The position numbers were made by a program, and so were the translations under genes. A DNA stretch of 33,487 nt from a virus. This document shows positions 14,513 to 33,487 of the stretch, piece after piece (within the stretch, counting starts at the first letter, position 1; each line of letters opens with the position of its first letter). The stretch spans positions 1 through 33,487 of the IMG/VR virus record IMGVR_UViG_3300033183_000124, one strand, 5' to 3'. A model generated the notes under the pieces. The model searched no databases. It was not told where the DNA came from and saw nothing but the letters and a program-made list of their open reading frames with translations.

Positions 14513-14527
14513 TCTCCCCCACAGTTA

Positions 14528-14550: not shown

Positions 14551-14570
14551 ACTACCTAGACAGGTACATT

Positions 14571-18908: not shown

Positions 18909-18918
18909 TCTCATTGTG

Positions 18919-18941: not shown

Positions 18942-18961
18942 GCGACAACGGAGACGCAGAC

Positions 18962-19249: not shown

Positions 19250-19250
19250 T

Positions 19251-19358: not shown

Positions 19359-19360
19359 CA

Positions 19361-19713: not shown

Positions 19714-19838
19714 CCCCTGAAGAGAAGCTCGAGGCGCTCCTGGCGTCTGTACCGTTACCGAAGCACAAACAGCGCGAGATCAAAGCACTGTTCGAGGAAG
19801 TTAAACCCAAAAAGAGGACGAAAAAAAGTGACAAATAA
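19710..19838 (+). CDS. Small basic hypothetical protein
   Basis: A 42-residue peptide from a GTG that overlaps the upstream stop. It consists of a predicted helix (TPEEKLEALLASVPLPKHKQ, REIKALFEEV) and a highly basic tail (KPKKRTKKSDK). It may bind nucleic acid through the tail. It is supported by tight packing and codon use rather than by similarity. Confidence 0.5.
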   Translation: MTPEEKLEALLASVPLPKHKQREIKALFEEVKPKKRTKKSDK

Positions 19839-19908
19839 CGTGCCTTTTACCCTGACCCTCATCATCGGCGTAATGCTGTTCGCCGCTTACCTTGAAGGAG
19901 TACTGTGA
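19828..19908 (+). CDS. Tiny membrane peptide
   Basis: A 26-residue peptide from GTG 19828, overlapping the preceding gene by 11 bases. It is almost entirely one hydrophobic span (FTLTLIIGVMLFAAYL). GAGG ten bases upstream and the TGATG junction with the next gene support translation. It is the second of three tiny single-span peptides in this arm. Confidence 0.45.
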   Translation: MTNNVPFTLTLIIGVMLFAAYLEGVL

Positions 19909-20081
19909 TGACTGACTTCACTGCACGCCCATCAACCATCAAAGCCGCCCTGCTCACCGAGCGCAAGGCTGAGTGCCCCTACGGTCGCCACGCGACACCT
20001 GCACAACGCGAGGAGTGGGAGGCGCACCACCGCGAGGTGATGGCTGTACTCAACGCTAAATTGCTGACGGTGCGCCCATGA
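19908..20081 (+). CDS. Small hypothetical protein
   Basis: A 57-residue basic protein. An N-terminal STIKAALLTERKAECPYGRH segment is followed by PAQREEWEAHHREVMAVLNA, a likely helix. The single Cys and His cluster do not make a clear zinc site. Both ends overlap neighbours (TGATG in, ATGA out into the methyltransferase). No family is recognised. Confidence 0.55.
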   Translation: MTDFTARPSTIKAALLTERKAECPYGRHATPAQREEWEAHHREVMAVLNAKLLTVRP

Positions 20082-20995
20082 CTGCTTATTACAACGAGTT
20101 CGACCCCTTTGCTGCCGCATGGTTAGAAGAACTGATAAAAGACGGTTTGATAGCGCCTGGCGTAGTAGACCGCAGATCAATCACAGAGGTAGACCCTAAT
20201 GACATCAAAGAATTCACCCAGTGCCACTTCTTCGCGGGAATCGGAGGGTGGAGTTATGCAGCTCGACTTGCTGGATGGCCTGACGACCGACCCATGTGGA
20301 CAGGCTCGCCCCCTTGCCAACCCTTCAGTACAGCCGGTAACAGAAAAGGAAAAGACGACCTTAGACACCTCTGGCCCGTCTTCTTCAATCTCATCCGCGA
20401 GTGCCAGCCTCCAGCAGTCTTTGGAGAGCAGGTTGCGTCAGCGATTAGAGACGGCTGGTTCTGCGATCTACAAGCTGACTTGGGAGCAGAAGAGTACGCC
20501 AGCGGGATGGTCGTACTGCCAGCGTGCAGCATCGGTGCCCCGCATAAAAGAGACCGACTCTTCTACGTTGCCAAGCGCATGGCCGACTCCCTCAACGCAG
20601 GACAACCCGCAAGTAGCTGGGGAGGGGAAAGCAGCAGACCACCCCAAGAGGGGAACGACACTTGGAGGAGCGGCGAGAATGGCAGCATGGCCGACACCAA
20701 TGACAGCCGACAACAGGGATCGGGGGAGTTTCGACGATCCGGCGATTCAGCGCCGAATGGAGATAGGGAAATCGATAGAACTGTCGATGCTGATTCATTC
20801 AGTAGCTTCTGGCAAGGAAGCAACTACGTTTACTGCCGAGACGGGAAGCACCGTCAAATACCAACTGAACCCGCGCTTTTCCCTTTGGCTCATGGGCTAC
20901 CCAATAGAGTGGGCACATTGCGCGGAGCGGGTAACGCCATTGTCCCGCAAGTCGGGGCAGAAGTAATTAGAGCGTTTATGGAGATAGAGCGATGA
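20078..20995 (+). CDS. C5 cytosine DNA methyltransferase
   Basis: A 305-residue Dcm-type enzyme that transfers a methyl group from SAM to cytosine C5. Motif I is FFAGIGG (51-57), motif IV PPCQPFS with catalytic C80 (78-84), motif VI appears as VFGEQV (114-119; Glu retained, typical of a phage subgroup), motif VIII is GAPHKRDRLFYVA (153-165) and motif X LRGAGNAIVPQV (281-292). The target-recognition segment (about 170-255) is short, polar and low complexity. There is no restriction partner, so protection from host restriction is likely. A 236-codon frame in the +1 phase lies wholly inside it. Confidence 0.88.
   Translation: MTAYYNEFDPFAAAWLEELIKDGLIAPGVVDRRSITEVDPNDIKEFTQCHFFAGIGGWSYAARLAGWPDDRPMWTGSPPCQPFSTAGNRKGKDDLRHLWPVFFNLIRECQPPAVFGEQVASAIRDGWFCDLQADLGAEEYASGMVVLPACSIGAPHKRDRLFYVAKRMADSLNAGQPASSWGGESSRPPQEGNDTWRSGENGSMADTNDSRQQGSGEFRRSGDSAPNGDREIDRTVDADSFSSFWQGSNYVYCRDGKHRQIPTEPALFPLAHGLPNRVGTLRGAGNAIVPQVGAEVIRAFMEIER
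20256..20966 (+). CDS. Nested WPTP-repeat protein overprinting the methyltransferase
   Basis: A 236-residue frame inside the methyltransferase gene, +1 phase. ATG 20256 has GGAGG (20243-20247) eight bases upstream, and those bases are the Gly-Gly codons of methyltransferase motif I. The product matches a recurring phage protein type by memory: SLQQSLESRLRQRLETAGS, then a Y.LTW segment, repeated AWPTPST/AWPTPMT boxes and a closing LNPRFSLWLMGYPIEW box. Function is unknown. WPTP codons coincide with the ADTN-type linker of the enzyme, and the closing box with its PLAHGLP.RVG segment, so conservation in one frame may drive the other. Translation is plausible but unproven. Confidence 0.55.
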   Translation: MQLDLLDGLTTDPCGQARPLANPSVQPVTEKEKTTLDTSGPSSSISSASASLQQSLESRLRQRLETAGSAIYKLTWEQKSTPAGWSYCQRAASVPRIKETDSSTLPSAWPTPSTQDNPQVAGEGKAADHPKRGTTLGGAARMAAWPTPMTADNRDRGSFDDPAIQRRMEIGKSIELSMLIHSVASGKEATTFTAETGSTVKYQLNPRFSLWLMGYPIEWAHCAERVTPLSRKSGQK

Positions 20996-21162
20996 CCAAA
21001 TTTACACCCGATGATCTGGACGAACTCGCCACCTACAAGGCGGCTATCGACCTGATATTCGATAACGGCAAATGGGAGCGCATAGACGGCAGGCTAGTGT
21101 GGCTAGTTCCTGAGAAGTACGCCGACAAGGTGCAGCAAATGATAGAGGAGCTAGAAGAATGA
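20992..21162 (+). CDS. Small hypothetical protein
   Basis: A 56-residue acidic protein (MTKFTPDDLDELATYKAAID, then FDNGKWERIDGRLVWLVPEK and a helical tail QQMIEELEE). It overlaps the methyltransferase stop (ATGA) and the next start in the same way. No family is recognised; the tight coupling supports it being real. Confidence 0.6.
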   Translation: MTKFTPDDLDELATYKAAIDLIFDNGKWERIDGRLVWLVPEKYADKVQQMIEELEE

Positions 21163-21473
21163 CAAACTTCCACCAAGAGCTACACGTACAACCGCGCACG
21201 CTAGAGATCGAGCGCATCTACCAGGAGAATAAAGAGGACATTAAAGCGGACATCGAGAGTCTCGAACTGTCCTTCCGTGACCTCGCCGCTAAGTACAACG
21301 TCAACGACCGCAACGTGCGTCGATGGTGTGAGCGTTGCGGTATAGACCCAGCATGGCGCAGTAAAGAGCGTCGAGTGCGTAAATTAGACGCGCCAAAGTG
21401 TTACACGAAGAAGTCGCAGCGGATCAAAGCGGACAAACCGCAGGCGCATAAATTAGCGGGGTTATGGAAATGA
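21159..21473 (+). CDS. HTH DNA-binding protein
   Basis: A 104-residue basic protein. The central ELSFRDLAAKYNVNDRNVRR is a clear helix-turn-helix of the type found in phage terminase small subunits and transposase-like regulators, followed by WCERCGIDPAW and a strongly basic C-terminal third (KERRVRKLDAPK, KKSQRIKADKPQ). It is far from terL and on the other strand, so a regulator is more likely than a terminase subunit. It could control late transcription from the repeat array or the 22.3 kb promoter region. Confidence 0.68.
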   Translation: MTNFHQELHVQPRTLEIERIYQENKEDIKADIESLELSFRDLAAKYNVNDRNVRRWCERCGIDPAWRSKERRVRKLDAPKCYTKKSQRIKADKPQAHKLAGLWK

Positions 21474-21556
21474 GTGATTTAGTGTTCGAAATAATCGCCG
21501 GTCTGGTTATCATCTGGGCCTTTGCTGAGATCGTCTGCTTTATAGTTGAGGATTAA
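21470..21556 (+). CDS. Tiny membrane peptide
   Basis: A 28-residue peptide overlapping the previous stop (ATGA). It is one long hydrophobic span from LVFEIIAGLVIIWAFAEIVC to FIV with acidic ends. The third such peptide in this arm. It may be an early membrane-acting factor such as superinfection exclusion, but sequence alone gives no mechanism. Confidence 0.5.
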   Translation: MSDLVFEIIAGLVIIWAFAEIVCFIVED

Positions 21557-21559
21557 GTG

Positions 21560-22081
21560 ATGCAAACATTTAAAGCATGGTGGAATAGTAGCGCAACGGC
21601 AGTTGATGACCATCCACGAAGGGTCGCAGAGGCCGCTTGGGACTTTGCGTATGAGATGCAGGAATATCGCATTAAAGAACTCGAGAAAATGTGCGATGGC
21701 AGAGATGAGATCATTGAAGAACTGCAAGAAGAACTGAAAGAAAGCCAACAAAAGCACTTGGATTCTATAAGAGCATTACGCAAGGCTAACGAGCAGATCA
21801 CTCGAATCGCCGCTGATAACGTAAAATTACGCATAGAGCTCGGCAAGCAAGAAGAACCAGTCGAGTGTGAGCAAGTTGTCTATGTGGCAACGCATAACAT
21901 TGAGGAAGATACGTTCTATGTCGGATCACTTAGAGAGATCATGGAATGGTGCGAGGAATGGAATCACGGAGTTAGCAGTCTGAACTTTTACCGCTTAGGT
22001 GATGAGGTTCGCATCGGCTTTGTGGATATGGGTAAAGAGACTAGGTTTAATAGAACTTTATCACCTGGTGATATAGTTTAA
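21560..22081 (+). CDS. Hypothetical coiled-coil protein
   Basis: A 173-residue protein; I use ATG 21560 (GAGG eight bases upstream) rather than GTG 21557. Residues about 20-95 are a continuous charged coiled coil (EMQEYRIKELEKMCDGRDEI, EELQEELKESQQKHLD). A globular C-terminal part has VYVATHNIEEDTFYVGSLRE and ends in a beta-type segment. It is the last gene before the structured gap. I do not recognise a family. Confidence 0.62.
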   Translation: MQTFKAWWNSSATAVDDHPRRVAEAAWDFAYEMQEYRIKELEKMCDGRDEIIEELQEELKESQQKHLDSIRALRKANEQITRIAADNVKLRIELGKQEEPVECEQVVYVATHNIEEDTFYVGSLREIMEWCEEWNHGVSSLNFYRLGDEVRIGFVDMGKETRFNRTLSPGDIV

Positions 22082-22174
22082 AGATTCACGGTGATGCTCA
22101 AATCGCTCCCCACTACTCTAATGTCTGGACGATAGAGGGGGCAAGCCTAGCCCGAGAAGAACCACTTTGTAAGT

Positions 22175-22243
22175 CGCCTGTGCACGGGCGCTGATAACGC
22201 AGGATAAGGGTCGGGACTACCTAACCGAGTGCCTGCACTTTTT
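22175..22243 (+). ncRNA. Candidate structured RNA with terminator-like end
   Basis: Stem 1 is cgcctg-tgca-cgggcg (22175-22190, with one G-U pair). Stem 2 closes gcagg (22199-22203) with cctgc (22232-22236) around an inner ggt/acc helix. A short agtg/cact stem then leads into TTTTT (22239-22243). Upstream bases 22108-22155 offer cccc/gggg and gggc/gccc pairs. It could be a small RNA, a leader or an attenuator. No known family is recognised. Confidence 0.35.
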
Positions 22244-22288
22244 GCATGAAATATGAACAAAAACACGACACTTTTCTGACATCAATAA

Positions 22289-22352
22289 TGTGCAATATTA
22301 GGATCATATGCGCATTAAAGTGTGGATTATGTGCACAATATGGCGCATTAAA
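22289..22352 (+). promoter_or_regulatory. Direct-repeat control region upstream of 22367 gene
   Basis: gcgcattaaa occurs at 22310-22319 and 22343-22352, 33 bases apart (about three helical turns). tgtgcaatat (22289) and tgtgcacaatat (22330) form a second related pair that includes the palindrome tgtgcaca. The spacing suggests a protein binding the same DNA face twice to regulate the gene at 22367. A CTGACA...TATTAG pair (about 22277-22300) is a weak promoter candidate. Confidence 0.5.
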
Positions 22353-22366
22353 AGCGAGGATTAATA

Positions 22367-22816
22367 ATGGCTAAACCCCGCAAAAAATATAACAAACTCA
22401 AGCAGCTCACCCGCGCCGCTGACTACTTCGTCAAAGACGTGCTAGTGTGCTACACCGATAACCTTAAAGGCTGTGTGATGCTGAACAAACGCAGTAAGCG
22501 CATCATACCGCCAGAGAGCCGCGAGGCGCGCGTCGCAGTGGCATCACTCGGTCGACCGCACAAATGGAGCTGCTTGATCGTCGCGTTAGGTTTAGACGGC
22601 GATAAGGAGTACTTCAAATCCGAAATAATCGAAACGAACACGCGCTATTTTCAGGCTGACCTGTCGCCAGTATTTGAGGAGCACCACCTGCGCCTGTCCA
22701 AAGAGATGAACCCAAATCACCTCTGCGGCCTCGCGTGGATAGCATCGCCTACAGGCGGCGACATTAGCGAGCGAGACGCGGCCGATATACTGACTAACTT
22801 GGAGGCGTGGAAGTGA
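22367..22816 (+). CDS. Hypothetical basic protein
   Basis: A 149-residue protein with a basic N-terminus (MAKPRKKYNKLKQLTRAADY) and a mixed alpha/beta body (HKWSCLIVALGLDGDKEYFK, LSPVFEEHHLRLSKEMNPNH, AWIASPTGGDISERDAADIL). I do not recognise the family. It is the first gene after the structured gap and is preceded by GAGG, so it opens a separate transcription block with the DUF3310 and zinc-ribbon genes. Confidence 0.62.
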   Translation: MAKPRKKYNKLKQLTRAADYFVKDVLVCYTDNLKGCVMLNKRSKRIIPPESREARVAVASLGRPHKWSCLIVALGLDGDKEYFKSEIIETNTRYFQADLSPVFEEHHLRLSKEMNPNHLCGLAWIASPTGGDISERDAADILTNLEAWK

Positions 22817-23088
22817 CTATCGTACCCCTAACGGAGCAAGAAGATGAGCTTATCGAACAAGATCAAGATATGGTTAATGCACCTAAGCATTATCAGAGTG
22901 AGGATGGGCTTGAGTGTTGGCAAGCACAGCTCGCGGCTGTTGGCCGAGATGGATATGTCGCTCACTGTCGTGCAACTGCTATTAAATACGCTTGGCGGGC
23001 AGGAGACAAAGACCCTAGAGCAGAAGCTCAAGACCTACGAAAATCGGCGTGGTACTTACTCAAAGCCGCCGAGGTCTTAGAGTCGTGA
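22813..23088 (+). CDS. DUF3310 protein (T7 gp1.7-related)
   Basis: A 91-residue protein. The DUF3310 hallmark is complete: VNAPKHYQSEDGLECWQAQL, then YVAHCRATAIKYAWRAGDKD and a final helix. In T7 the same domain forms the C-terminal part of gp1.7, a nucleotide kinase active on dTMP/dGMP. The stand-alone small form is common and its activity is less certain. I start at GTG 22813, which overlaps the previous stop and has GGAGG seven bases upstream; the GTG at 22807 is too close to that site. Confidence 0.85.
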   Translation: MTIVPLTEQEDELIEQDQDMVNAPKHYQSEDGLECWQAQLAAVGRDGYVAHCRATAIKYAWRAGDKDPRAEAQDLRKSAWYLLKAAEVLES

Positions 23089-23270
23089 AGTGCTATAATT
23101 GCCAATCTGCGGCGCTGGTCAGTCTATCCTCTATAGACAAGCGGCTATGCGCCGACTGTCTTACTTACAACGACTGGCATCTCAAACCACAGCAGAAGTC
23201 AGTTCTCATCGAAGGAAAAGTTGGCGATGCACGACTACTGGAACAATCGAAAGATGAAACTAGAAGCTGA
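23085..23270 (+). CDS. Small zinc-ribbon protein
   Basis: A 61-residue protein from a GTG that overlaps the DUF3310 stop (GTGA). CYNC at residues 3-6 and CADC at about 23-26 form a two-knuckle zinc ribbon with a beta hairpin between (SAALVSLSSIDKRL). The C-terminal half is polar. Small zinc ribbons of this sort in phage early regions can modify host RNA polymerase or ribosomes, but nothing here specifies the target. Confidence 0.65.
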   Translation: MKCYNCQSAALVSLSSIDKRLCADCLTYNDWHLKPQQKSVLIEGKVGDARLLEQSKDETRS

Positions 23271-23403
23271 TCTCGAGCACATCAAGCGTAATATGAAGAA
23301 CGCACGGGAGTTCGAGGAGAAAGAGCACCTACAAGAAGTCTACGCGATGGTCTATGACGAGCTAGAGATAGCTAAGAAAGCGGTCGCACAATTCGGGTAT
23401 TAA
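23227..23403 (+). CDS. Small coiled-coil hypothetical protein
   Basis: A 58-residue charged helical protein (MHDYWNNRKMKLEADLEHIK, REFEEKEHLQEVYAMVYDEL). It overlaps the zinc-ribbon gene by 44 bases. ATG 23227 is used here; a TTG at 23221 has a better-spaced AAGGA and is a real alternative. It is the last rightward gene before the convergence hairpin. Confidence 0.58.
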   Translation: MHDYWNNRKMKLEADLEHIKRNMKNAREFEEKEHLQEVYAMVYDELEIAKKAVAQFGY

Positions 23404-23427
23404 AAAAGCCCGCCTGTGTCGGCGGGC
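23402..23427 (-). terminator. Intrinsic terminator at the convergence point
   Basis: Read leftward, GCCCGCC, a six-base loop, GGCGGGC and then TTTTTT make a perfect Rho-independent terminator for the structural/lysis arm. In the rightward direction the hairpin is followed by AACCCCC, so it is a poor terminator for the early arm. It sits 22 bases after the metallophosphoesterase stop. Confidence 0.88.
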
Positions 23428-23449
23428 AACCCCCACGAGGTTGAGGCTA

Positions 23450-24622
23450 CTATCGCAAAACCTGTGCGATGTTAATAGTATGCCTCTCCACCTCTCCAAA
23501 GTCACGATGTAGCACCAACGCTTTACTGTCCTGCCCCGCACGATAGCCGCCAGAGTAGGCGTAGTTATCTTTAGCCGCTAGCGTCCTGAATGACTCGACA
23601 ATACACCCAGAATATTCTCTGCGTGTGTCGTGATGAATATGGCCGGTGTACCAGTAGCGGTACTCAGCCTCGCCCCAGTCCTGCGGCTTATCCGTCGCCA
23701 TAATCAGCGGTAGCTTGTCAGCCTTCGCTGTGTGACCGTGATGGACGCCGAAGAAGCATTTGCCGTGCCGTACATACTGGAACACCGCCGCAGTCGTGTC
23801 GATCTCTACGCGCTCATCAAGCTCGAACATATGCTTAAGCGCCGCCTGCAAGAACATAGCGCCGGTGTCGTCGTGATTGCCGATGGCAGTGATGACCTTG
23901 ACGCGGTGATGATGATCGAGCGCCGAGCGTATCATCTGTATCATTATTTTGAGCCCAGTATCGGCCATGTCCAGATAAGTGCCATCGGTATCTAGGCTGT
24001 GCCGGTTGCGTTCGGTCACCTTCGAGGCGTTGTCATAGTGGAAGTAATCGCCCAGGTTCACGATGACGGCCTGCTCACAGATCGGCGCAGACTTGACCAG
24101 CCGGTCGAATACGCCGCACATCACCCGCTGTGCTACCTGCAAATCCCAGTCGTCACCGGCCTCATCCTTGAGCGCCAGCATACCGATATGCGGATCACCG
24201 AGCGGATAGACCGCCATCAGCTCTTCAGAGGTTGTCGTGTGCTCATAGGGCACTGGTTCGAACTTCGGCAGATTGTCGGCTAATTCAGCGACTAATTGCC
24301 TAATAGACTCGGCGAAGTACTGGCGATCTATATCAGTCTTGACCCATTGCTGCTTGAGTAGGCCGTCCTCACCGTATAGCGTCGAGATGCCCTTAACTAA
24401 AAACCCATCCGGCGTGGGATGGGTCATGTCGTACTCTGGGCTATACCCTCGCTTAATCGCCGTCTGCTTCGCTTTAGTCTTAGCCGAGGTGATGTGGCTT
24501 CTAGGTAACCCTAATTTCTCGACGATCTGGTTATTTGAGTAGCCCTGCGTGGCTAGCTCGCATATCTCATACTGTCGGGTGTGAGGTGTTATGAATTCAA
24601 GAATGCGCGGATCAAGGGTCAT
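23450..24622 (-). CDS. Metallophosphoesterase with N-terminal HTH
   Basis: A 390-residue protein. The C-terminal two thirds are a calcineurin-like phosphoesterase with a full metal set: GDPHIG (142-147), GDYFHYD (191-197), GNHDD (248-252), HHGH (294-297) and TGHIHHD (326-332). Residues about 15-60 form a LuxR/sigma-like HTH (ICELATQGYSNNQIVEKLGL, then PRSHITSAK), so it probably binds DNA. Similar phage proteins are annotated as phosphoesterase or DNA repair exonuclease. Its place at the very end of the late arm is unusual for a DNA enzyme. GGAGG eight bases before the ATG sets the start. Confidence 0.85.
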   Translation of the reverse strand: MTLDPRILEFITPHTRQYEICELATQGYSNNQIVEKLGLPRSHITSAKTKAKQTAIKRGYSPEYDMTHPTPDGFLVKGISTLYGEDGLLKQQWVKTDIDRQYFAESIRQLVAELADNLPKFEPVPYEHTTTSEELMAVYPLGDPHIGMLALKDEAGDDWDLQVAQRVMCGVFDRLVKSAPICEQAVIVNLGDYFHYDNASKVTERNRHSLDTDGTYLDMADTGLKIMIQMIRSALDHHHRVKVITAIGNHDDTGAMFLQAALKHMFELDERVEIDTTAAVFQYVRHGKCFFGVHHGHTAKADKLPLIMATDKPQDWGEAEYRYWYTGHIHHDTRREYSGCIVESFRTLAAKDNYAYSGGYRAGQDSKALVLHRDFGEVERHTINIAQVLR

Positions 24623-24638
24623 CGCCGACCTCCGTGTT

Positions 24639-25001
24639 TTAGCCTTTCCAGCGTGCAGGGCCGTTCGAGCGTGTGTCTATATGTACGAAGTTGCTATATA
24701 CGCCCATGCCGCCCCAGCCGTCTAGGATAGGCTCGAGCACCTCGGCTATATCAGCAGGCTTAACGCCGTTGATGCGTATGTCACAGGCGCGCCCGTAGAG
24801 GTGCTGTGAGTTCTTTGAGCCACCGACTGCGGCGTTGTGATCGGCGCAGCGGCAGGCTGAATTGATAATGACCGGTACTCCGAAGTGACTACGCACGTGC
24901 TCGAGTATCGGCATCAACTCTGTATCTACAGTGTCGAATCCGCACCCGCATTTGCAGGCGAACTCTGAGCGGCTAAAGTATGAGCCTATTTTTCTATCCA
25001 T
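24639..25001 (-). CDS. Endolysin, peptidase M15 type
   Basis: A 120-residue single-domain M15 peptidase (D-Ala-D-Ala carboxypeptidase or L-Ala-D-Glu endopeptidase fold). The zinc set is visible: SQHLYGRACDI (H about 87, D about 94) and FVHIDTR (H about 107), preceded by the NSACRCADHNAAVGGSKNS loop. No signal peptide, so it needs the holin encoded upstream. The start ATG directly follows the stop of the basic gene (TAAATG). It should cut peptide stems of the host peptidoglycan at lysis. Confidence 0.9.
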   Translation of the reverse strand: MDRKIGSYFSRSEFACKCGCGFDTVDTELMPILEHVRSHFGVPVIINSACRCADHNAAVGGSKNSQHLYGRACDIRINGVKPADIAEVLEPILDGWGGMGVYSNFVHIDTRSNGPARWKG

Positions 25002-25199
25002 TTACTTCACCGACTTTTTGCCGCGACAGCCCCACGCTTTTCGGCGTGCTCTGACTTTCGCTGTTTTCTTCTGCCCACTAGAACGGGCACAGTACGCGTC
25101 TCCGCGCTTAGTGCCTGGATAGGATACTCGCCGGCGTGTTTTACCGGAACTGTCTTTGTAGGTCGTACCGTCTCGGTACTTCTTATCTGCCGCATTCAT
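25002..25199 (-). CDS. Small basic phage protein
   Basis: A 65-residue, very basic protein (about a third Lys/Arg) with a conserved-looking core: YRDGTTYKDSSGKTRRRVSY, then GDAYCARSSGQKK and ending RRKAWGCRGKKSVK. I have seen this type beside endolysin genes in other phages, mostly annotated as hypothetical. Its charge suggests DNA packing or binding to anionic membranes or cell wall. It overlaps the holin gene by four bases and abuts the endolysin, so it is co-expressed with lysis genes. Confidence 0.7.
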   Translation of the reverse strand: MNAADKKYRDGTTYKDSSGKTRRRVSYPGTKRGDAYCARSSGQKKTAKVRARRKAWGCRGKKSVK

Positions 25200-25567
25200 T
25201 TCTTCGCCCTCTTATCCAGTACGCCCTCGAATGCCCCGCCGCCAAAATAGAACGCCAAGATTATCAGCATCGCATAGCCGATCTGAAAATCTTCTAGGGT
25301 CTGCTTGATGATGTTAGCGTCGGTCTCTTGACCAGCTAGCGTGAAGCCGAGAACAAGCGCAAAGCAAGTGAGATAGACGAAGGTAAAGGCGAACGCTATA
25401 ACGCGCTGCGCTAACTTAAAGGGGGCATATGCCGACAGCATTTCGGTCTTTGCTTTAGTCTTTGCGGCTATCTCTTCTTCGGTGCTTGTGTGCATCGAGT
25501 CGATTAGGTCGATACCCTTAGAGATAACGTCACCTGATCCGAATATCTTACTTAATACGCCTAGCAT
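25196..25567 (-). CDS. Holin (3TM, GTA-release type)
   Basis: A 123-residue membrane protein. After an amphipathic N-terminus (MLGVLSKIFGSGDVISKGID) and a charged linker, there are hydrophobic segments RVIAFAFTFVYLTCFALVLG (about residues 56-75) and IGYAMLIILAFYFGGGAFEG (about 96-115), followed by a basic tail. This matches the holin family described for gene-transfer-agent release. I start at ATG 25567 (GGAG upstream) rather than an earlier in-frame codon at 25600. It would form lesions that let the endolysin reach the wall. Confidence 0.78.
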   Translation of the reverse strand: MLGVLSKIFGSGDVISKGIDLIDSMHTSTEEEIAAKTKAKTEMLSAYAPFKLAQRVIAFAFTFVYLTCFALVLGFTLAGQETDANIIKQTLEDFQIGYAMLIILAFYFGGGAFEGVLDKRAKK

Positions 25568-25568
25568 C

Positions 25569-25748
25569 TCAGCTCTCCTCGAATAAGTTAGTTCGCACAC
25601 ATACTACTTCGTAGTTTACTTTAGGTTTAGGCGCGCTGGTCATTAATGACTCTCTAGCGTCAAAGCAATCAGCCATTGATCGAAACAACCCTGTTGGTAC
25701 GGTGTTGACTCCGTTAGCGTGCAGGACAATTACGATCAGCGCCCACAT
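25569..25748 (-). CDS. Small hypothetical protein in the lysis cassette
   Basis: A 59-residue protein with a hydrophobic start (MWALIVIVLHANGV), a middle SMADCFDARESL segment and an end YEVVCVRTNLFEES. The pattern (hydrophobic strand, then F/C-x-A-R-E helix, then VC strand) resembles DUF1482-like phage peptides, which have no known role. Two or three Cys residues could form a disulfide if exported. It fits exactly between the spanin-like and holin genes with one base on either side. Confidence 0.65.
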   Translation of the reverse strand: MWALIVIVLHANGVNTVPTGLFRSMADCFDARESLMTSAPKPKVNYEVVCVRTNLFEES

Positions 25749-25749
25749 A

Positions 25750-26058
25750 CTAATCGTCTCTACGCGATGCCCTTAATCGGACGACTGTTTCGAGGTGCTG
25801 CATATTAGCGCGGGTCTCAGCGAGTTCTGCGCGCAGGTCAGCGATAGTTTTAAGCAGCTCTTCTTTCTCAACGATAAGTTTATCGACTTTCGCGTTTAGG
25901 ATGGTGACCTGCTCTTTTAGCGTCTCGTTGAACTCGGCACTGGCGGCGTCAGACTTAGTCAGGCGTTCGTGATTCTGTTTAGCCTTTTGAGATAGATAAC
26001 CCCAAAGACCTGCGGAACCCACTAAGGCGATAGCAATGGGAGCGAGTTGTTCAAACAT
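25750..26058 (-). CDS. Spanin-like (i-spanin) membrane/coiled-coil protein
   Basis: A 102-residue protein with one N-terminal transmembrane segment (LAPIAIALVGSAGLWGYLSQ) and a periplasmic-type coiled coil for the rest (about residues 35-95; KEQVTILNAKVDKLIVEKEE, LLKTIADLRAELAETRANM). This is the layout of an inner-membrane spanin, although no embedded or overlapping lipoprotein gene with a lipobox was found. It overlaps the four-span gene upstream by eight bases. A role in the last step of lysis is inferred from layout and position. Confidence 0.6.
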   Translation of the reverse strand: MFEQLAPIAIALVGSAGLWGYLSQKAKQNHERLTKSDAASAEFNETLKEQVTILNAKVDKLIVEKEELLKTIADLRAELAETRANMQHLETVVRLRASRRDD

Positions 26059-26506
26059 TCTTTAGCCTTCTCATCTCAAGTTCTTGACGTTGGAACAAGT
26101 TAGCTAAGTAGGCCGAATGCAACACCACCCATATGATCGCAAATTCCGTGAACCACTCGCTGACACTTTGCTCGATTTTAACAAATTCTCCGCTTGCCTT
26201 CACATTGTACACCATAGTCGAAACATAGTGCGCTTCGTGGGTAACATAAATCGAGAGGATAACCGCCGAAAGTACCATATCGACGATCAACAATACTTTG
26301 AGTACTCGTCGAGTTGACCAAATGGCAGCAGGTAATGTGGCGAAACTTGTCAGACCCCAGGCAGCGAGTAATTCCTGCGGTAGACAGGCATCGCAGAAGT
26401 TCCACAGCATACCTGCAAGCAAAACACCCCAGAAGGCGTACGACACGATCTGAGCCTGACCATTAGCGGTCATTACTTTGCTACAGAAGCCGTTTAGCTT
26501 ACTCAT
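26051..26506 (-). CDS. Four-span membrane protein
   Basis: A 151-residue integral membrane protein, not recognised. Hydrophobic spans lie at about 18-38 (AQIVSYAFWGVLLAGMLWNF), 47-66, 68-89 (VLKVLLIVDMVLSAVILSIY) and 117-137 (FAIIWVVLHSAYLANLF). The C-terminus is basic. It starts the lysis group and overlaps the structural gene upstream by eight bases and the spanin-like gene downstream. It could be a second holin, an antiholin or a host-envelope factor. Confidence 0.62.
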   Translation of the reverse strand: MSKLNGFCSKVMTANGQAQIVSYAFWGVLLAGMLWNFCDACLPQELLAAWGLTSFATLPAAIWSTRRVLKVLLIVDMVLSAVILSIYVTHEAHYVSTMVYNVKASGEFVKIEQSVSEWFTEFAIIWVVLHSAYLANLFQRQELEMRRLKNV

Positions 26507-27218
26507 CTATAACCAGGTGCGCATTCACATACGCACTAATCTCATTTTCGCTGCTGGATGACTTCGCTTGAAGCTGGAAGTCACATTTTTCTGGTACAGC
26601 AAATGGTACAGGTACAGTGAACTGCAATAATCCGACCGCCCACGTTGAGCGCCAGAAGTTGATCACAGCGCCAGCAGTTGTTTTTAAATGCGCGCGCCCT
26701 ATTAGATATTTATTCGGGTTTACCGTACCAGATGCGAACGAGACTGTATTGATATAGAGCGTAGAGTTAGCCGGCACGGTGTAGATCAACGCCTGCGCAC
26801 TACCGAATCCCGCAGCAATATACGAGTATGTCGTACCACCGTTAGAGATCGTGATATTACCGACATTAGAGCCGGTGACGATCTGCGCAGCGTTGATGCG
26901 TAGGAACGATTGTGTCGTAGTGACTGGCGTTGTACCCGCTAGAGTTACAGTCTCGGTGATCTGATTGTAGTCAGCATCAAGCCCCTCGAGGTATACGCCC
27001 ATCGTATCGCTGGCGCTAGAGCTCACTAGGCTCATCACAACGGCAGAGGCCGGCACCTGGGTAATACCGCCTCCGTCGTGTGTGATAGTCTCGTAGGTTG
27101 TGCCGATAGTCTCGTTAAACCCGAAGAGGTTTACCGCTTTGACGTTCTGGAAGTGTCCGCGAGCTATGTCGAAGTATGAGTTGTGGCTCGGGTTATGTTC
27201 GTCAAATTGGTATGGCAT
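26499..27218 (-). CDS. Putative virion structural (beta-rich) protein
   Basis: A 239-residue protein dominated by Thr, Ser, Val and Gly, with beta-sandwich-type sequence throughout (ETIGTTYETITHDGGGITQV, SLVSSSASDTMGVYLEG, GNITISNGGTTYSYIAAG). It has no signal peptide or membrane span. Similar proteins occur in phages as capsid-decoration or tail-associated proteins. It lies between the DGR and the lysis genes. AGAGG seven bases before the ATG marks the start. Structural role is inferred. Confidence 0.62.
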   Translation of the reverse strand: MPYQFDEHNPSHNSYFDIARGHFQNVKAVNLFGFNETIGTTYETITHDGGGITQVPASAVVMSLVSSSASDTMGVYLEGLDADYNQITETVTLAGTTPVTTTQSFLRINAAQIVTGSNVGNITISNGGTTYSYIAAGFGSAQALIYTVPANSTLYINTVSFASGTVNPNKYLIGRAHLKTTAGAVINFWRSTWAVGLLQFTVPVPFAVPEKCDFQLQAKSSSSENEISAYVNAHLVIDE

Positions 27219-27246
27219 AACTTAAACCTCTTCAGGCCAATCATTA

Positions 27247-27263
27247 ACAGGTGCATTACCTGT
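27247..27263. promoter_or_regulatory. Small inverted repeat in an intergenic gap
   Basis: acaggt and acctgt flank a five-base centre in the 70-base gap between the 80-residue gene and the structural gene. It may be a weak RNA hairpin or operator. There is no U tract in the leftward direction. Confidence 0.35.
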
Positions 27264-27288
27264 ACACTATCTTCATCAAGAAATGGCA

Positions 27289-27531
27289 TTAGATGCTCTC
27301 TAAATCTGACTTAGTAAAGCCAAAAGCCTCAATGGTAGACAAATCTTCTACATTTTCCCAAACTGGCTCGATAGCTTCACCGCCGTAGTCTGGATCATTG
27401 TAATTGTCTGGATACACCGCAGCATTTTGCTTGCGTGTCATAGTACCCTTTAGGAACTGCAAGAACTCTTCGTGTTCTGGAGTGCCTTGGATAGCGTCTA
27501 AATCTTCACGGGTGTTAATTGTGTACTTCAT
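27289..27531 (-). CDS. Hypothetical acidic protein
   Basis: An 80-residue acidic protein (MKYTINTREDLDAIQGTPEH, then EFLQFLKGTMTRKQ and a Tyr/Asp/Pro-rich AAVYPDNYNDPDYGGEAIEP). Proteins of this look follow tail-fibre genes in various phages and may be fibre chaperones; that is only a suggestion. GAGG six bases before the ATG. It overlaps the reverse transcriptase stop by 17 bases, so it is co-transcribed with the DGR. Confidence 0.6.
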   Translation of the reverse strand: MKYTINTREDLDAIQGTPEHEEFLQFLKGTMTRKQNAAVYPDNYNDPDYGGEAIEPVWENVEDLSTIEAFGFTKSDLESI

Positions 27532-28498
27532 ATTGACCTCTAAAATAGGTTTTCAAGTTATGGCAATCTGCCCACTTTATATGGCCACGCCAAGAAGCGG
27601 TAAATTTACTTAACGCCTCTCTGTCTTTTATCGTATTGTACCGTTTCATCTTGCGTTTAGCACGGGTTACTGAATCTTTGCGTATTAGCTTATGGTTGCG
27701 CCATATTCTATACCCTAAAAAGTCTATTCCAGTGTGTACGGGTCTAGCGCACCACTTACTTATATTCATACGCAACTCTTTAGCTACGAACGTCTCTATC
27801 TTGCCGTGTAGTGCGCGCAATTCCTGCAAGTCGTCGCCAAGTATAACAATATCATCCATGTACCTCACCCAGTGCCTTTGCTTGAGTTCGTGGTGAATAT
27901 AGTGATCAACTATATTGCCGTACACGTTTGCAAATAGCTGACTTGTAAGGCTTCCAATCGGTATGCCGACACCACTCTTAGGGGTTATCTCCTCAATCAA
28001 GTTTAGTGTTTGGCGGCACTTGATCTTATTTGCGATCTCCTTGTGTAGTATCTGGTGGTCTACACTAGGGAAGTATTTACTGAAGTCTGTCTTTAGAAAG
28101 TATTTGTATTGATGCTTTCTGAGTAACGCCTGAACACGCTTAACACCGTTGTGAGTTCCGTAACCGATTCTACAAGCATAGTTATAAGGTAGGAATGTTC
28201 TATCAAATATAGGCGCAATAATATTGCATAGGGCGTGTTGAACCAAACGATCTTTAAACTCTAAAGCAGATATTTGCCGAGGTTTAGGTTCATAAATTGT
28301 GAAGTGTCGGTATTCACCGACTTTATAACTTCCGTCTATTAATTCCTGCTGAAGCTGTCGAAGATTGGTTTTATCGTATTCCTTAAACTCTAAATAACCC
28401 CAAGTCTTTCGCTTACCTTTGGATGTCTGACTATAGGCTGCCAGAAGATTATCCCAGTCAGTAATCTGGCTATACAGATTACGGTACTTCTTTCCCAT
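27515..28498 (-). CDS. DGR reverse transcriptase
   Basis: A 327-residue reverse transcriptase of the diversity-generating retroelement group. Visible motifs are an N-terminal FKEYDKTNLRQLQQELIDGS segment, TDFSKYF (137-143), GIPIGSLTSQ (178-187, the DGR-type replacement of the QG motif) and catalytic YMDD (213-216), followed by HTGIDFLGYRIW. It has no maturase or endonuclease domain. It copies the template-repeat RNA with adenine-directed errors in complex with Avd. I start at ATG 28498 (GGAG upstream); a GTG at 28528 would add ten residues. It is the last gene of the DGR in the order target, avd, TR, RT. Confidence 0.95.
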   Translation of the reverse strand: MGKKYRNLYSQITDWDNLLAAYSQTSKGKRKTWGYLEFKEYDKTNLRQLQQELIDGSYKVGEYRHFTIYEPKPRQISALEFKDRLVQHALCNIIAPIFDRTFLPYNYACRIGYGTHNGVKRVQALLRKHQYKYFLKTDFSKYFPSVDHQILHKEIANKIKCRQTLNLIEEITPKSGVGIPIGSLTSQLFANVYGNIVDHYIHHELKQRHWVRYMDDIVILGDDLQELRALHGKIETFVAKELRMNISKWCARPVHTGIDFLGYRIWRNHKLIRKDSVTRAKRKMKRYNTIKDREALSKFTASWRGHIKWADCHNLKTYFRGQYEVHN

Positions 28499-28655
28499 AG
28501 ATGTTAGCTCCGCTTTTCGATATTCCACTACTCTGCGTTATGCTAAACCCCTTAATGTATTTGCCGAAGCAGGACAATAACGGCTGACCACAACACGGGG
28601 TGTAATCGACCTAGCAAGCCGTAACTTTGCTAGAGTGCATAACCTTTTTCATCGC
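28499..28655 (-). ncRNA. DGR TR-RT spacer (structured RNA segment)
   Basis: A 157-base non-coding stretch between TR and the RT start. A perfect seven-pair stem ctagcaa/ttgctag (28611-28617 with 28627-28633) encloses a nine-base loop. In studied DGRs the template RNA extends past TR into such a spacer, which folds and self-primes cDNA synthesis. Apart from the RT ribosome site I see no gene here. Confidence 0.6.
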
Positions 28656-28771
28656 CACAAACGCCACGGGAGCCAATGTTGTTGTTCGAGTTAGAAGCCG
28701 AGTTGTTCCAGTTCGAACAACGAGAACCAGCGTTAGAACCATTGTTCCAGTTGCCACCAAATAGCACCGCG
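28656..28771 (-). repeat. DGR template repeat (TR)
   Basis: 116 bases nearly identical to the variable repeat at 29209-29324. On the sense strand it has 24 adenines, mostly as AAC codons, which lets mutagenesis reach many amino acids. Read in the target frame it would give NWNNGSNAGSRC-type sequence with Asn at the variable sites. It is non-coding here and lies ten bases after the avd stop, so avd, TR and spacer are probably on one transcript. Confidence 0.95.
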
Positions 28772-28780
28772 ACGAAACCC

Positions 28781-29158
28781 CTATTGCCCTTTCTTGCTTT
28801 TTATACCCGCTATCCACTTATTAAGAATTGATCCGCACTCAGCTATAAGCGTCTGCGCGGTTTCTTCTTGGTGTTTACTGATACACCTGACTTTATCTGA
28901 AGAGTAGAAGCGAACCCAAAAGCGTAAATGGGCTAAACCAGCATCTGCCTCGTAGCATTTACTAACTTGATTGGATTTACCTGCTCTAACAAATAAATCA
29001 ACCTGTCTAAACAACACCTCTAAAAACATGTCTCTTGCTACGCCATGCTTTCTAGGTGTGTTTTGGATAATAGGGTACAGATACTTAATTACTTTCTCGT
29101 ATTTATCAACGATAAACATCTGATCGTAGCTTCTGTACCCTTCTTTAATTGGCTCCAT
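28781..29158 (-). CDS. avd: Avd, DGR accessory variability determinant
   Basis: A 125-residue basic helical protein between the target gene and TR. It fits the Avd/bAvd family: four helices with FIVDKYEKVIKYLYPIIQNT, ARDMFLEVLFRQVDLFVRAG, AHLRFWVRFYSSDKVRCISK and ETAQTLIAECGSILNKWI. The family forms pentameric barrels that bind the reverse transcriptase and template RNA and are needed for mutagenic retrohoming. Basic surface residues (about 20 Lys/Arg) fit RNA binding. It starts at ATG 29158, just beyond the VR-linked hairpin. Confidence 0.88.
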   Translation of the reverse strand: MEPIKEGYRSYDQMFIVDKYEKVIKYLYPIIQNTPRKHGVARDMFLEVLFRQVDLFVRAGKSNQVSKCYEADAGLAHLRFWVRFYSSDKVRCISKHQEETAQTLIAECGSILNKWIAGIKSKKGQ

Positions 29159-29172
29159 AAATCCCTATAGGC

Positions 29173-29188
29173 GGGCGCTTCCGCGCCC
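29173..29188 (-). promoter_or_regulatory. DGR hairpin/cruciform behind VR
   Basis: On the sense strand GGGCGC, loop GGAA, GCGCCC directly follows the stop of the target gene, 20 bases after VR. The loop matches the GRNA tetraloop type reported behind VR in DGRs, where the structure is needed for efficient retrohoming. It may also slow transcription into avd. Confidence 0.75.
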
Positions 29189-30514
29189 TTAGTCAAGTAT
29201 CAGGTGGTCACAAACGCCACGGGAGCCAATGACGGTGCCCGAGCTAGAAGCCGAGTTGGTCCAGAGCGAACAACGAGAACCAGCGTTAGAACCATCGCTC
29301 CAGGTGCCACCAAATAGCACCGCGTTAGGTGCGTTATACTCTGAACCGCGGCCTTCAGTATTAGCGTTCCAGCCACCTGTAGCATAAGCGCCACCGCGCT
29401 CTATGCCCCAAATCCACAAACAACCAGAAGATTGGTTACAACCCCACTTACTCACATAGGCACTATCCCAGTTAGTAGTAGATGGGTCAGAGCCAATAGA
29501 CGACGCTTCGGTTGTACCGAAGGCTAACGCCATAAACTCCTGTTGAGTTGGAGTACGTTTGCCGTGTGACGCTAATAGCTCTTGTGTCTCAAACCAAGTG
29601 TAAGAGCCGTAAGTCGTTGAACCGTTACCACCAAAGTTAGATGGTACTTTAGGGGGTGATGATCCATCAGCAATCGTTACGTTGTATTTAGATGTGCCGT
29701 TTGTGTGGTGATCTACACCAGTCAGGTAAATATCTGCCCAGAAACCGCCTGCTACCAATGTCATGCCACGCGGGTCACACGAAGGGCGGAATTTCAAATC
29801 CCAAAAAGAATACTCGTTAATTTGCGCTGTAGTGTTACCACCTGATTGACCTGTCGCATTAGAGCCAGCCGCATAATGGAAGCCGCCCACCTTGCGAGCG
29901 TTAGCTGAAGGCGGTGTCGTATGGTTAGACGATGCCTGTAGAGAGCCGTCAGTCTCAGCCCAGATTGCGTAGTCAGTGCCCGCAGTCAGGGACGGCATAT
30001 CAATAGACGTGCCAGATGCAATTGTCAGAACAGTACCATTCACCTCGACATAAATAGTTGTCGCAGATGTCGCAGTGCCGTTACCCGTCTTAGTCCAAGC
30101 AACAGACGATGGAGATGCTTTGCGGAACAAGCCATAAGTAGTGGTGCTAAGGCTAGAGAACGAAATTGTACCTGAGCCGTTGGTTGTCAAAACTTGGCCT
30201 ACTGTTCCATCTGATGTTGGCAGTGTGAAAGCAGATACAAAGCTAGTTAAGTTTGAATCGTAGGCTTGGACTGTGCTACCAACACCAGCAGGAGTGCCTG
30301 TTGATAACGTATAGACTGAAATCCATGCGCTGTCCGCAGCGTTGCGTAACTTCAAAAGGTCGTTAGCGGTATCGGCCCAGACCTGGTAAGCAAACGTAGT
30401 GGTTGGCTCGGTTGCCCCACTCGCCTGAGTGCCTAGCGCCTGTAGCGCGCTATTAAGGTCAGACCGAAAAGCTGGAAAGCCCTGGTTGTCTATTGTCAAA
30501 TCGTGCTGGCTCAT
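29189..30514 (-). CDS. DGR target protein, tail fibre/receptor-binding (C-type lectin-like end)
   Basis: A 441-residue virion protein whose last 45 residues are diversified. Residues 1-110 are a tail-fibre-type segment (QAYDSNLTSFVSAFTLPTSD, GQVLTTNGSGTISFSS). The middle is Gly/Ser/Thr rich. From about residue 250 it reads as a formylglycine-enzyme/C-type-lectin fold: PRGMTLVAGGFWADIYLTGV, then GKRTPTQQEFMALAFG and GCLWIWGIERGGAYATGGWN. VR covers residues about 398-436 and ends six residues from the C-terminus, as in most DGR targets. It most likely binds the host receptor. It follows the tail-tip gene by ten bases. Confidence 0.9.
   Translation of the reverse strand: MSQHDLTIDNQGFPAFRSDLNSALQALGTQASGATEPTTTFAYQVWADTANDLLKLRNAADSAWISVYTLSTGTPAGVGSTVQAYDSNLTSFVSAFTLPTSDGTVGQVLTTNGSGTISFSSLSTTTYGLFRKASPSSVAWTKTGNGTATSATTIYVEVNGTVLTIASGTSIDMPSLTAGTDYAIWAETDGSLQASSNHTTPPSANARKVGGFHYAAGSNATGQSGGNTTAQINEYSFWDLKFRPSCDPRGMTLVAGGFWADIYLTGVDHHTNGTSKYNVTIADGSSPPKVPSNFGGNGSTTYGSYTWFETQELLASHGKRTPTQQEFMALAFGTTEASSIGSDPSTTNWDSAYVSKWGCNQSSGCLWIWGIERGGAYATGGWNANTEGRGSEYNAPNAVLFGGTWSDGSNAGSRCSLWTNSASSSGTVIGSRGVCDHLILD
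29209..29324 (-). repeat. DGR variable repeat (VR)
   Basis: 116 bases matching TR except at 12 positions, and all 12 are adenines in the TR sense strand (24 adenines in total); none of the 92 other template bases differ. Changes give G, C and T. This is the direct footprint of adenine-directed mutagenesis. The altered codons turn Asn-rich template positions into T, S, D, L, G, V and others on the lectin-like surface. Confidence 0.96.
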
Positions 30515-30524
30515 TTTAAACCTC

Positions 30525-33419
30525 TTAGCTTATTACTCGACCCCAACCGCGAGCAGTATAGTCGAAACTACGTGCCACAGCAGTGCCGCCGCTGTTCTTA
30601 AATACTATCACAAATCCCGCTGGAGTCTTGCTTGTGATTTCATAATAGTCGCCCGTCTGCAAATCTTGGGCTCCGATACCCAGAGCCGGCACTTCTTTAA
30701 ACGCCCCATCTGGGAAGGTGACATTATAGGATGCTGCGCTAGTTGCTAGATCGTTCTGCCCAACCACTCGATCTGGCATATCAATCGTCACCGATAATTT
30801 ACTAACTGCCGGCGTCGCAGATGTGTCGGTAGTTGTCATCTTCAACCGGAATTGCATACCCCGCGCCTTAAAGTCACTTACAGCAAACGATTGCCAATTA
30901 CTCCAAATAGGTGTGCCAGTGGTATCGTCATAAGTTGTGCGAATTTGTACGATGGCATCAGTATCATCAAAGGCATTTACATCGCCATCAAAGTAACCCG
31001 AGCGAGCATCGAAATTGCCTACAGCCGAGTCAAACAGATTCACGTAATCCACGCGGATATGCTCGACGTTAGAGGTTACGCGGCTGATGAACACATCACC
31101 CAAATCGACAGTATCATCGAAGTAATAATAACCTTCGGTGTCTACATAACCACCGCCACCATCGAACAACCCCTCACCTGAATCAAAGAGTCCTACGGCT
31201 GAGTCAAACAACAGCGAGGTATTAAGTACTAAGCGATCTAGCTCATCCAGCTCCGCTACATCGTCAAACGTGCCCACAAAATCGGGGTGCTCTGTGATGG
31301 TCTGTACGGAATTTAGATTCTTGATGGCCTCTAAGTTGCTATCAAGTACAACAGTCGCAGGTGACTCTGACGCCAGCCCAAGTTTATCAACCGCTTTAAC
31401 GAAGTAAGTACCATTTCGCGCCGGTACAATAACGCTAGTAGATGGTCGAGCTACTTTAGGTATCAGCGACACGGAATTAGAGTAATCCATCGCCCCATCA
31501 GCCGAGGCAAAGCGCACGCGGTAATACGACAGATCAAGATCAGGTACAGCATTCCACGTCAGTAGATACTGATCGCCGATTAAGTTGCCGGTCAGCCCTG
31601 CTACATCACTAGGCGGTGCCGTCTTACCGACGACCTGGTGGGCTACCGTTGTCCAGTCAGACACAACGCCTACTGTACTAATTGATCGAGCGCGTACATT
31701 GTAGGTTGTATTATCCTCAACCTGTAGCAACTCAAAACGATTACCGGATGATTGGCCCAAGTTCACCCAGTCACCGCCATTAGACGCCTGAACCTCGAAG
31801 CGGTTAGCGAATGGACTGTCCGTTGATACCGTAGCGATCAGTGCGGTGATAACTTCCTCGTTGTAGGAGCGCAATTGATCCGATGCTATTAGGCTAGGCG
31901 CATCCAGCGTAGCGATAGGTGGCAGAGTAGTGTTGTTGCGCGTTAGCTCTGCCTCATCCGATACAGCCCATTGATAGACCGTTGAGCTGGTCTCTTTAAG
32001 CATCATGTTTACGCCGAACATCTCACCATCGTTCGACAGCTCCCAACCGACCACCTCGAATATTTTATTGGTAAAACCGAAACGCTCATTACTAAAGTAG
32101 AGCGTGTCCCCCACCTCGTATTTAAACGCCTTCAGGTTACACGGCACTGAGAGCGTTAGCTGTTCACGGTTACGGTAGAGGCTGATCTTGGCAAGGCGCT
32201 GTGCGGTTGCCGACGAAGTGGTATAAGGTAGCGCCACATCAACAAACCGCTGTATGCCACCATCCTCGGCCTTAAAGGTATCTGATTTAACCGATGGGTA
32301 GTCCACAGGCTGCCAGTTATCCTCTGGCGATAAGAAGATGCCCTTAACCGCGTTGAAGTTCGCCTGGTTAGATACGCGGGTGGTGACTTTGATCTGCCCG
32401 ATAATATCATCCATTGATAGCGTATGAACGGGTGTTACATACGCTCCTGCGCGTACTTTCCATTGACCATTAGAGTAGTAGATCGTGCCCGCCATAGCTG
32501 AGAGCATATCCTGCAATACAGCCGCAGGTTGCTTGCCAGTGTCGACAATGCCGTTAATGGTATAACGCTTCTCCGTACCGCCACCGGCCAGTGTGACATT
32601 CTCATCACATATATTCGCCGCAGTAATAAAGCTATTGAAGTCTATCTCAGCGTCAGCCGCGCCAATACCGTATTTACTATCGCGTAGGTAATCAAGCAGA
32701 CATAGCGCAGCGTTATTGCTGTAGGCGGTAGTAGCCGAGCGCGGGTCATACACTGCGCGCCCCTTAACAATCGCCGCTAGGTTGGGTACGCCATTGGAGT
32801 ACACGTTCTGGTCATAGGTTAGCTTGGCGTAGATGTAAGCGATACCGCGCAACCGATGGTTAGTTGTCATCGATGTGCGTGACACAAGATTGCTGTCGGC
32901 AGTTTGATCTTCGGCGCCAAAGTGCGCCGTAACCCACGCTTTACCTGAGTAATTAGGGTCTGTAGTAGCGTCAACCGCCGCCTCAACTGCGTTAGTTAGA
33001 CCGGATTTAACAATCTTATCATTAAAGAATACTGACTCAACGGCAGTAATCTGATGCCCAGCTAGCGTTACACAGTAGTGCAAATCTTTATTGCTGTTGG
33101 TCGCCTCCATAAACACCACAGCGCCGGAAGTCTTAACCCTGCCGTATACGATCTTGCGACTAGCCAGAGGGTTGCGCTGCATGATGGACTGGCCTTGTAG
33201 GTCGCTGGCGCTGGTGAGGTCTGATTGTTTGGGTTGCAGAGCATTAGATACGACGCCTAATACGGCGTTGATGACAAAAGCGTTGGTGAAGTATGCCCCC
33301 GCTGTACCCGTGAACGCACCAGTAGCTATAGCGCCGAATCCTGGGATCATCGCTATACCCGTAGCTACAGCTGCGCCTACCACAGCCATTTTTACTATGT
33401 TGACGACCTTCTTACCCAT
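30525..33419 (-). CDS. Central tail-tip/fibre protein (gpJ / GTA-megatron-like)
   Basis: The 964-residue tail-tip protein. Residues 1-60 are hydrophobic, Ala/Gly-rich (VVGAAVATGIAMIPGFGAIA, then FTNAFVINAVLGVVSNALQ), as in gpJ relatives. Residues about 75-480 form the hub-like body (ASRKIVYGRVKTSGAVVFME near 86-105). Two fibronectin-III-type segments follow at about 510-700 (PFANRFEVQASNGGDWVNLG; YLLTWNAVPDLDLSYYRVRF). Two FD-rich repeat clusters lie at about 736-760 and 796-816, then a beta domain to the end. It should bind the host and trigger ejection. Coupled to the NlpC-like gene across the circle junction and followed by the DGR target. Confidence 0.88.
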   Translation of the reverse strand: MGKKVVNIVKMAVVGAAVATGIAMIPGFGAIATGAFTGTAGAYFTNAFVINAVLGVVSNALQPKQSDLTSASDLQGQSIMQRNPLASRKIVYGRVKTSGAVVFMEATNSNKDLHYCVTLAGHQITAVESVFFNDKIVKSGLTNAVEAAVDATTDPNYSGKAWVTAHFGAEDQTADSNLVSRTSMTTNHRLRGIAYIYAKLTYDQNVYSNGVPNLAAIVKGRAVYDPRSATTAYSNNAALCLLDYLRDSKYGIGAADAEIDFNSFITAANICDENVTLAGGGTEKRYTINGIVDTGKQPAAVLQDMLSAMAGTIYYSNGQWKVRAGAYVTPVHTLSMDDIIGQIKVTTRVSNQANFNAVKGIFLSPEDNWQPVDYPSVKSDTFKAEDGGIQRFVDVALPYTTSSATAQRLAKISLYRNREQLTLSVPCNLKAFKYEVGDTLYFSNERFGFTNKIFEVVGWELSNDGEMFGVNMMLKETSSTVYQWAVSDEAELTRNNTTLPPIATLDAPSLIASDQLRSYNEEVITALIATVSTDSPFANRFEVQASNGGDWVNLGQSSGNRFELLQVEDNTTYNVRARSISTVGVVSDWTTVAHQVVGKTAPPSDVAGLTGNLIGDQYLLTWNAVPDLDLSYYRVRFASADGAMDYSNSVSLIPKVARPSTSVIVPARNGTYFVKAVDKLGLASESPATVVLDSNLEAIKNLNSVQTITEHPDFVGTFDDVAELDELDRLVLNTSLLFDSAVGLFDSGEGLFDGGGGYVDTEGYYYFDDTVDLGDVFISRVTSNVEHIRVDYVNLFDSAVGNFDARSGYFDGDVNAFDDTDAIVQIRTTYDDTTGTPIWSNWQSFAVSDFKARGMQFRLKMTTTDTSATPAVSKLSVTIDMPDRVVGQNDLATSAASYNVTFPDGAFKEVPALGIGAQDLQTGDYYEITSKTPAGFVIVFKNSGGTAVARSFDYTARGWGRVIS

Positions 33420-33487
33420 CAGTCAAATCTCCAAAATCTGTGCGCTTCACTGATTGGGCTAAAGATAAGCCCCTCATCGCCAACGCA
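33347..33487. repeat. Terminal direct repeat, right copy
   Basis: Right copy of the 141-base end overlap, identical to the left end. It contains the start codon of the tail-tip gene at 33417-33419 and duplicates the C-terminal codons of the NlpC/P60-like gene. It carries no additional gene. Confidence 0.95.

Follow-up and report, generated by a model that had tools for sequence, protein, structure and literature searches.

A complete BPP-1-type DGR in a small long-tailed phage without detectable integration genes

The DGR of the temperate podovirus BPP-1 (PMC6199706), arranged as mtd-avd-TR-brt, is the described system with which the locus reported here has most in common. A survey published in 2018 encountered phage DGRs in temperate carriers only, although it anticipated that a lytic one might be found (PMC6199706). 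Viral DGRs with tail-protein targets are abundant in metagenomes (PMC8144416), and the Zeta crAss-like phages, in which a DGR acts on a C-type-lectin tail-fibre target, have since been described as apparently lytic (PMC12386605). These are gut phages of ~100 kb, unlike the ~33.3-kb genome considered here, and the RTs of crAss-like phages among the matches listed are ~34-39% identical to the RT of this phage. Mtd-type tail proteins also occur in the small marine phages S-CBS1 and S-CBS3 of Synechococcus and P12026 of Marinomonas, with 38-47% identity over 64-66% of the target.

We analysed the IMG/VR virus record IMGVR_UViG_3300033183_000124 over its full 33,487 nucleotides, referred to here as the window. 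Its DGR shares with that of BPP-1 the gene order, the target family, the RNA family, the type of hairpin and a downstream Bbp4 gene (Table 1). The two systems differ in the N-terminus of the target, which in this phage resembles that of marine phage tail fibres and not that of BPP-1 Mtd, and in the carrier, a long-tailed phage with no detectable integrase in place of a temperate podovirus. The DGR is thus of a known kind, the BPP-1 type, and it is the carrier that is unusual. We put the probability of this reading, a complete BPP-1-type DGR in a long-tailed phage without detectable integration genes, at about 0.96.

Table 1. Position, strand and basis of assignment of the features of the DGR locus and its surroundings in the window.
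Feature	Position	Strand	Basis or remark
Direct terminal repeat, 141 bp	1-141 = 33347-33487	.	Sequence identity of the ends
Bbp4-like small protein, 80 aa	27289-27531	-	66% identity to BPP-1 Bbp4
DGR reverse transcriptase (RT), 337 aa from GTG	27515-28528	-	RVT_1, phrog_1423, Brt homology
Phage_DGR RNA element, 3' of TR	28503-28636	-	Rfam RF03022
TR, template repeat	28656-28771	-	Repeat search; 116 nt; 11 AAC/AAT codons in the target frame
avd, accessory variability determinant, 125 aa	28781-29158	-	Pfam bAvd 1.3e-28; phrog_3206
Post-VR hairpin GGGCGC-GGAA-GCGCCC	29173-29188	-	Immediately 3' of the target stop codon
IMH-like 3' end of VR	29191-29215	-	Departs from the TR copy after GTTTGTG; putative function by analogy
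VR, variable repeat	29209-29324	-	Repeat search; 116 nt; target codons 397-436 of 441
DGR target, Mtd-type receptor-binding tail protein, 441 aa	29189-30514	-	Pfam mtd_2nd; phrog_11262 tail protein
Tail-tip J-like protein, upstream neighbour of the target	30525-33419	-	phrog_5616, phrog_31 central tail fiber J

On the minus strand the target is followed by avd, TR and RT, with the Phage_DGR RNA lying 3' of TR, which is the BPP-1-type order. The RT translation contains the DGR-type motifs YMDD and GxxxSQ (the latter within IGSLTSQ) and shares 60.2% identity with BPP-1 Brt. Among solved structures it matches Brt of the Brt-Avd complex with an E-value of 5e-131, while Avd matches the solved Bbp7/Avd structure (5e-46). 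Since the alignment with the Brt structure begins only at residue 10 of the translation, and the DGR RNA ends at 28503, the ATG at 28498 is more likely to be the start of the RT than the GTG at 28528. The RF03022 match is full length and scores 104.9 bits, the cut-off being 50. An earlier, sequence-only reading of this DNA had named avd, a DGR-type RT (YMDD, GIPIGSLTSQ) and a lectin-like target, and each of these is backed by family models or solved homologues. Its list of parts was incomplete, the Phage_DGR RNA and the post-VR hairpin having been overlooked, as were the terminal repeat and the Bbp4 homologue.

The TR/VR pair, likewise reported in that reading, was recovered independently by repeat search. 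On the coding strand the two copies differ at 12 of 116 positions and all 12 are adenines in TR, whereas each of the 92 non-adenine positions of TR is identical in VR. If 12 differences were placed at random, the probability that all would lie within the 24 adenine positions is 3.9e-10 (hypergeometric). VR has G at six of the differing sites, C at four and T at two; the other 12 of the 24 adenines are unmutated, so that one or a few homing events would be enough to account for the pair. Outside the 116 bp the flanks of TR and VR are unrelated on either side, and a scan of IMG/VR that left the 24 adenine sites free to hold any base yielded no further copy. It might be argued that TR and VR are an ordinary duplication that has undergone normal mutation, as duplicated tail genes are known among relatives (L073-L077 have paired Mtd copies). 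The confinement of the differences to adenines already refutes this, and an RT, Avd and a DGR RNA stand alongside the repeats; we regard an ordinary duplication as having a negligible chance of being correct.

Comparison with relatives, a set of 80 Mtd-type loci and 20 RT loci taken from viral contigs, points the same way as the adenine-specific changes seen here. In 41 of them 609 of 637 TR/VR differences are at TR adenines, A making up 23% of TR, but this proportion is inflated because the alignment score punished non-A mismatches more heavily and a pair was retained only if over 70% of its differences lay at A. One RT-bearing locus, L078, has just 6 of 11 differences at A. Better evidence than the pooled figure is provided by relatives with an identical TR and a different VR, which the sequence-only reading had proposed should be sought. 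Such pairs are L067/L072 (13/13 and 13/13 differences at A), L043/L051 (19/19 and 15/15) and L041/L047 (11/12 and 17/19).

When the TR adenines are mapped to the frame of the target they fall in 13 codons, 12 of which correspond to codons with TR adenines in BPP-1 Mtd (340, 344, 346, 347, 350, 357, 359, 360, 364, 366, 368 and 369). The thirteenth is target codon 427, equivalent to BPP-1 367, and it takes the place of BPP-1 codon 348. At target codon 400 (equivalent to 340) the adenine change is synonymous. Eleven of the 13 codons are AAC or AAT, from which 15 amino acids can be reached and a stop never, and the theoretical protein diversity is up to ~10^13.5 variants. We propose that a transcript carrying TR and the Phage_DGR RNA would be reverse-transcribed by an RT-Avd complex, which would misread template adenines and so give a mutated cDNA. 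This cDNA would replace VR in the Mtd-type tail protein, with the IMH-like sequence and the post-VR hairpin directing the exchange, and the replacement could generate up to ~3e13 protein variants, without stops at the mutable codons, and thereby change tail binding.

The roles given here to the IMH-like site and the hairpin would follow those established by experiment in BPP-1. The IMH-like sequence is GTTTGTGACCACCTGATACTTG, as against GTCTGTGACCACCTGATTCTTG in BPP-1, and it differs from its TR copy (IMH*), the VR flank being GTGACCACCTGATACTTG and the TR flank GTGGCGATGAAAAAGG. Efficient homing in BPP-1 requires a hairpin at the post-VR place, and GRNA loops are common to phage DGRs (PMC3240598). 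In phage DGRs these hairpins are GC-rich, have a GRNA loop, lie 4-34 bp after VR and have a stem of 7-10 bp (PMC3240598). The GGAA loop and the 20-bp distance from VR seen here are within this pattern; the stem, at 6 bp, is shorter than that range and than the 8-bp stem of the BPP-1 hairpin at the equivalent place, GCGGGGCC-GAAA-GGCCCCGC. We scanned the sequence just 3' of the target stop for hairpins with a GNNA loop and a perfectly paired stem of 5 bp or more. Of 48 loci that have RT or avd, 36 contain such a hairpin, as against 1 of 24 that have neither (Fisher 4e-9); once near-identical loci are dropped the counts are 33 of 45 and 1 of 18 (7e-7). The hairpin occurs in 0.2% of shuffled sequences, and shared ancestry inflates the contrast between the two groups of loci. 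This tie to the DGR genes across loci argues for a role of the hairpin in homing and not as a terminator. A transcription terminator is unlikely in any case, as no T-run follows the hairpin, the terminator scan did not list it, and it is mostly missing where there are no DGR genes.

The short stem does raise the question of whether the cassette was once active but is now inactive in this phage, for instance because the hairpin has weakened or the genes are not expressed, with VR frozen in its present state. Loss appears to be frequent, since Mtd-type targets without DGR genes or with only remnants of them (as in L070, L089 and L096) are common among relatives. Here, however, RT, avd, TR, the DGR RNA and the IMH-like site are all intact, and because VR is unchanged at every non-adenine position a long decay since the last homing event is disfavoured. 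We therefore consider an inactive cassette improbable. The claim of the sequence-only reading that the system is intact and has acted in this lineage holds, all parts being present and the TR/VR differences being at adenines only. The cassette has seen recent use, and the DGR is presumably still active in the phage today. Among relatives, L070, L089, L096 and L050 have partial DGRs (a truncated RT, avd without RT, or an RT remnant without avd), apparently showing that the mutator has been lost repeatedly while the Mtd-type target was kept.

The terminal repeats indicate that the record is effectively complete, and it is very probably a whole genome of ~33.3 kb. It encodes a terminase, portal, capsid, tape measure and tail-tip proteins, together with a PolA-type polymerase, primase, helicase, RecE-like exonuclease, annealing protein, methyltransferase and endolysin. 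The presence of a tape measure, tail-tip J and lambda L/M-like proteins, with no sheath found, is the gene content of a siphovirus and supports, at the level of genes, the earlier assignment to that morphology. Among named phages, those nearest in capsid and terminase are the Pelagibacter HTVC111P-type phages and Phage DSL-LC06 (44-53%), and the DGR-side half of the window (14000-33487) had no megablast match in phage records. Two genes may encode homing endonucleases: an HNH endonuclease gene (16055-16591, plus strand) that overlaps the polymerase frame, and a GIY-YIG-like gene (10717-11250, minus strand) adjoining the putative small terminase.

No tyrosine or serine recombinase (PF00589, PF00239) was detected in the whole genome, which upholds the statement that integration genes are absent. 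It does not follow that the phage must be virulent. It could be temperate by another route, as a plasmid-like prophage or by means of an unrecognised recombinase or host XerCD, in which case the carrier would not be unusual. Consistent with this are two small repressor-like DNA-binding proteins (19495-19713 and 13685-13870), the occurrence of a tyrosine recombinase in 1 of 24 relatives sharing the head module and in 7 of 23 longer DGR-bearing relatives (absences in either group carry little weight because many of the records are fragments), and the restriction of phage DGRs to temperate phages in the earlier survey (PMC6199706). One DGR-bearing relative without an integrase (G025, 41.7 kb) was checked for terminal repeats that would make it a further complete example, and has none. 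Against a temperate lifestyle are the lack of a recombinase in a terminally repeated genome and the finding that all ORFs longer than 300 aa are assigned to the lytic cycle or to the DGR. Moreover, no close relative of the capsid was found in plasmids, and a search of 84,980 species genomes gave a single one. It lies in a Pseudomonadales MAG, on a contig of 12.4 kb that has phage genes, and so fixes neither a host nor a prophage state. A temperate lifestyle seems to us rather unlikely. The description 'apparently virulent' in the sequence-only reading is well served by a complete genome without a recombinase but falls short of proof in view of the repressor-like proteins and the one relative with a tyrosine recombinase; judged by its gene content, the phage is probably virulent. 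As the carrier has no sign of chromosomal integration, the use of DGRs is extended beyond chromosome-integrating phages, their best-known carriers. With a complete BPP-1-type system in a small integrase-less phage, it also becomes possible to test whether targeted hypermutation depends on a lysogenic phase.

The target itself appears to be composite. Its last 312 residues are 57% identical to BPP-1 Mtd, residues 122-441 match solved Mtd structures (E 1e-106), and a fold search with the predicted model, which is of medium confidence (pLDDT 70), returns Mtd. The lectin-like fold proposed for the C-terminus, for which structure prediction had been suggested as a check, is thus confirmed at that confidence, as is the view that the target is a tail protein adjoining the tail tip, given its phrog_11262 match beside the J-like gene; it presumably acts in receptor binding. 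While residues 130-441 match Mtd, residues 1-120 match the N-terminal parts of tail fibres from Roseobacter, Pelagibacter and Prochlorococcus phages, among them the HTVC111P-type phages that are nearest by capsid. An Mtd-type target was seen in none of the 24 fetched records sharing the head module, many of them fragments in which an absence is weak evidence. The marine-fibre-like N-terminus and the lack of Mtd in head-module relatives suggest that an Mtd lectin module, along with its DGR, was probably grafted onto a resident tail-fibre anchor.

The Bbp4-like gene offers a further view of how this module is constituted. Among phage records its homologues are found in Bordetella phages only. 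In our set of relatives it lies beside Mtd in 37 of the 38 RT-bearing loci whose downstream sequence is long enough and in 21 of 23 loci without any DGR gene, where it mostly begins 7-79 bp past the Mtd stop. What is new here is that the gene persists next to Mtd-type targets even when avd, TR and RT are missing. Because it is retained in DGR-less loci it tracks the target and not the mutator, which suggests that it is a dedicated partner of the target. The structure is predicted with high confidence (pLDDT 92), but neither PDB nor BFVD contains a matching fold, and we found no paper that mentions Bbp4 together with BPP-1. In some members the C-terminus is extended, and the extension matches DUF4376 or shows a weak match to tail-fibre or tail-fibre-assembly families. 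Our best guess is that the protein folds or assembles Mtd-type proteins, perhaps as a chaperone, so that a hitherto unstudied gene may be needed to make receptor-binding proteins of this type. More tentatively, and at somewhat less than even odds, the Mtd lectin and its Bbp4-family partner may be an exchangeable unit, into which the ~1.6-kb avd-TR-RT segment is optionally inserted between the two genes, and which has here been joined to the tail-fibre N-terminus already present in a strictly lytic siphophage, where it would go on diversifying host binding without lysogeny.

Bbp4-like homologues are also present at L038, L048, L055, L061, L085, L099 and L100, and L090 has what is likely to be a divergent member. 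In L069 and L073-L077 a second VR-like segment occurs ~1 kb upstream, which suggests two Mtd-type genes in tandem, possibly representing two targets or a duplicated receptor-binding protein.
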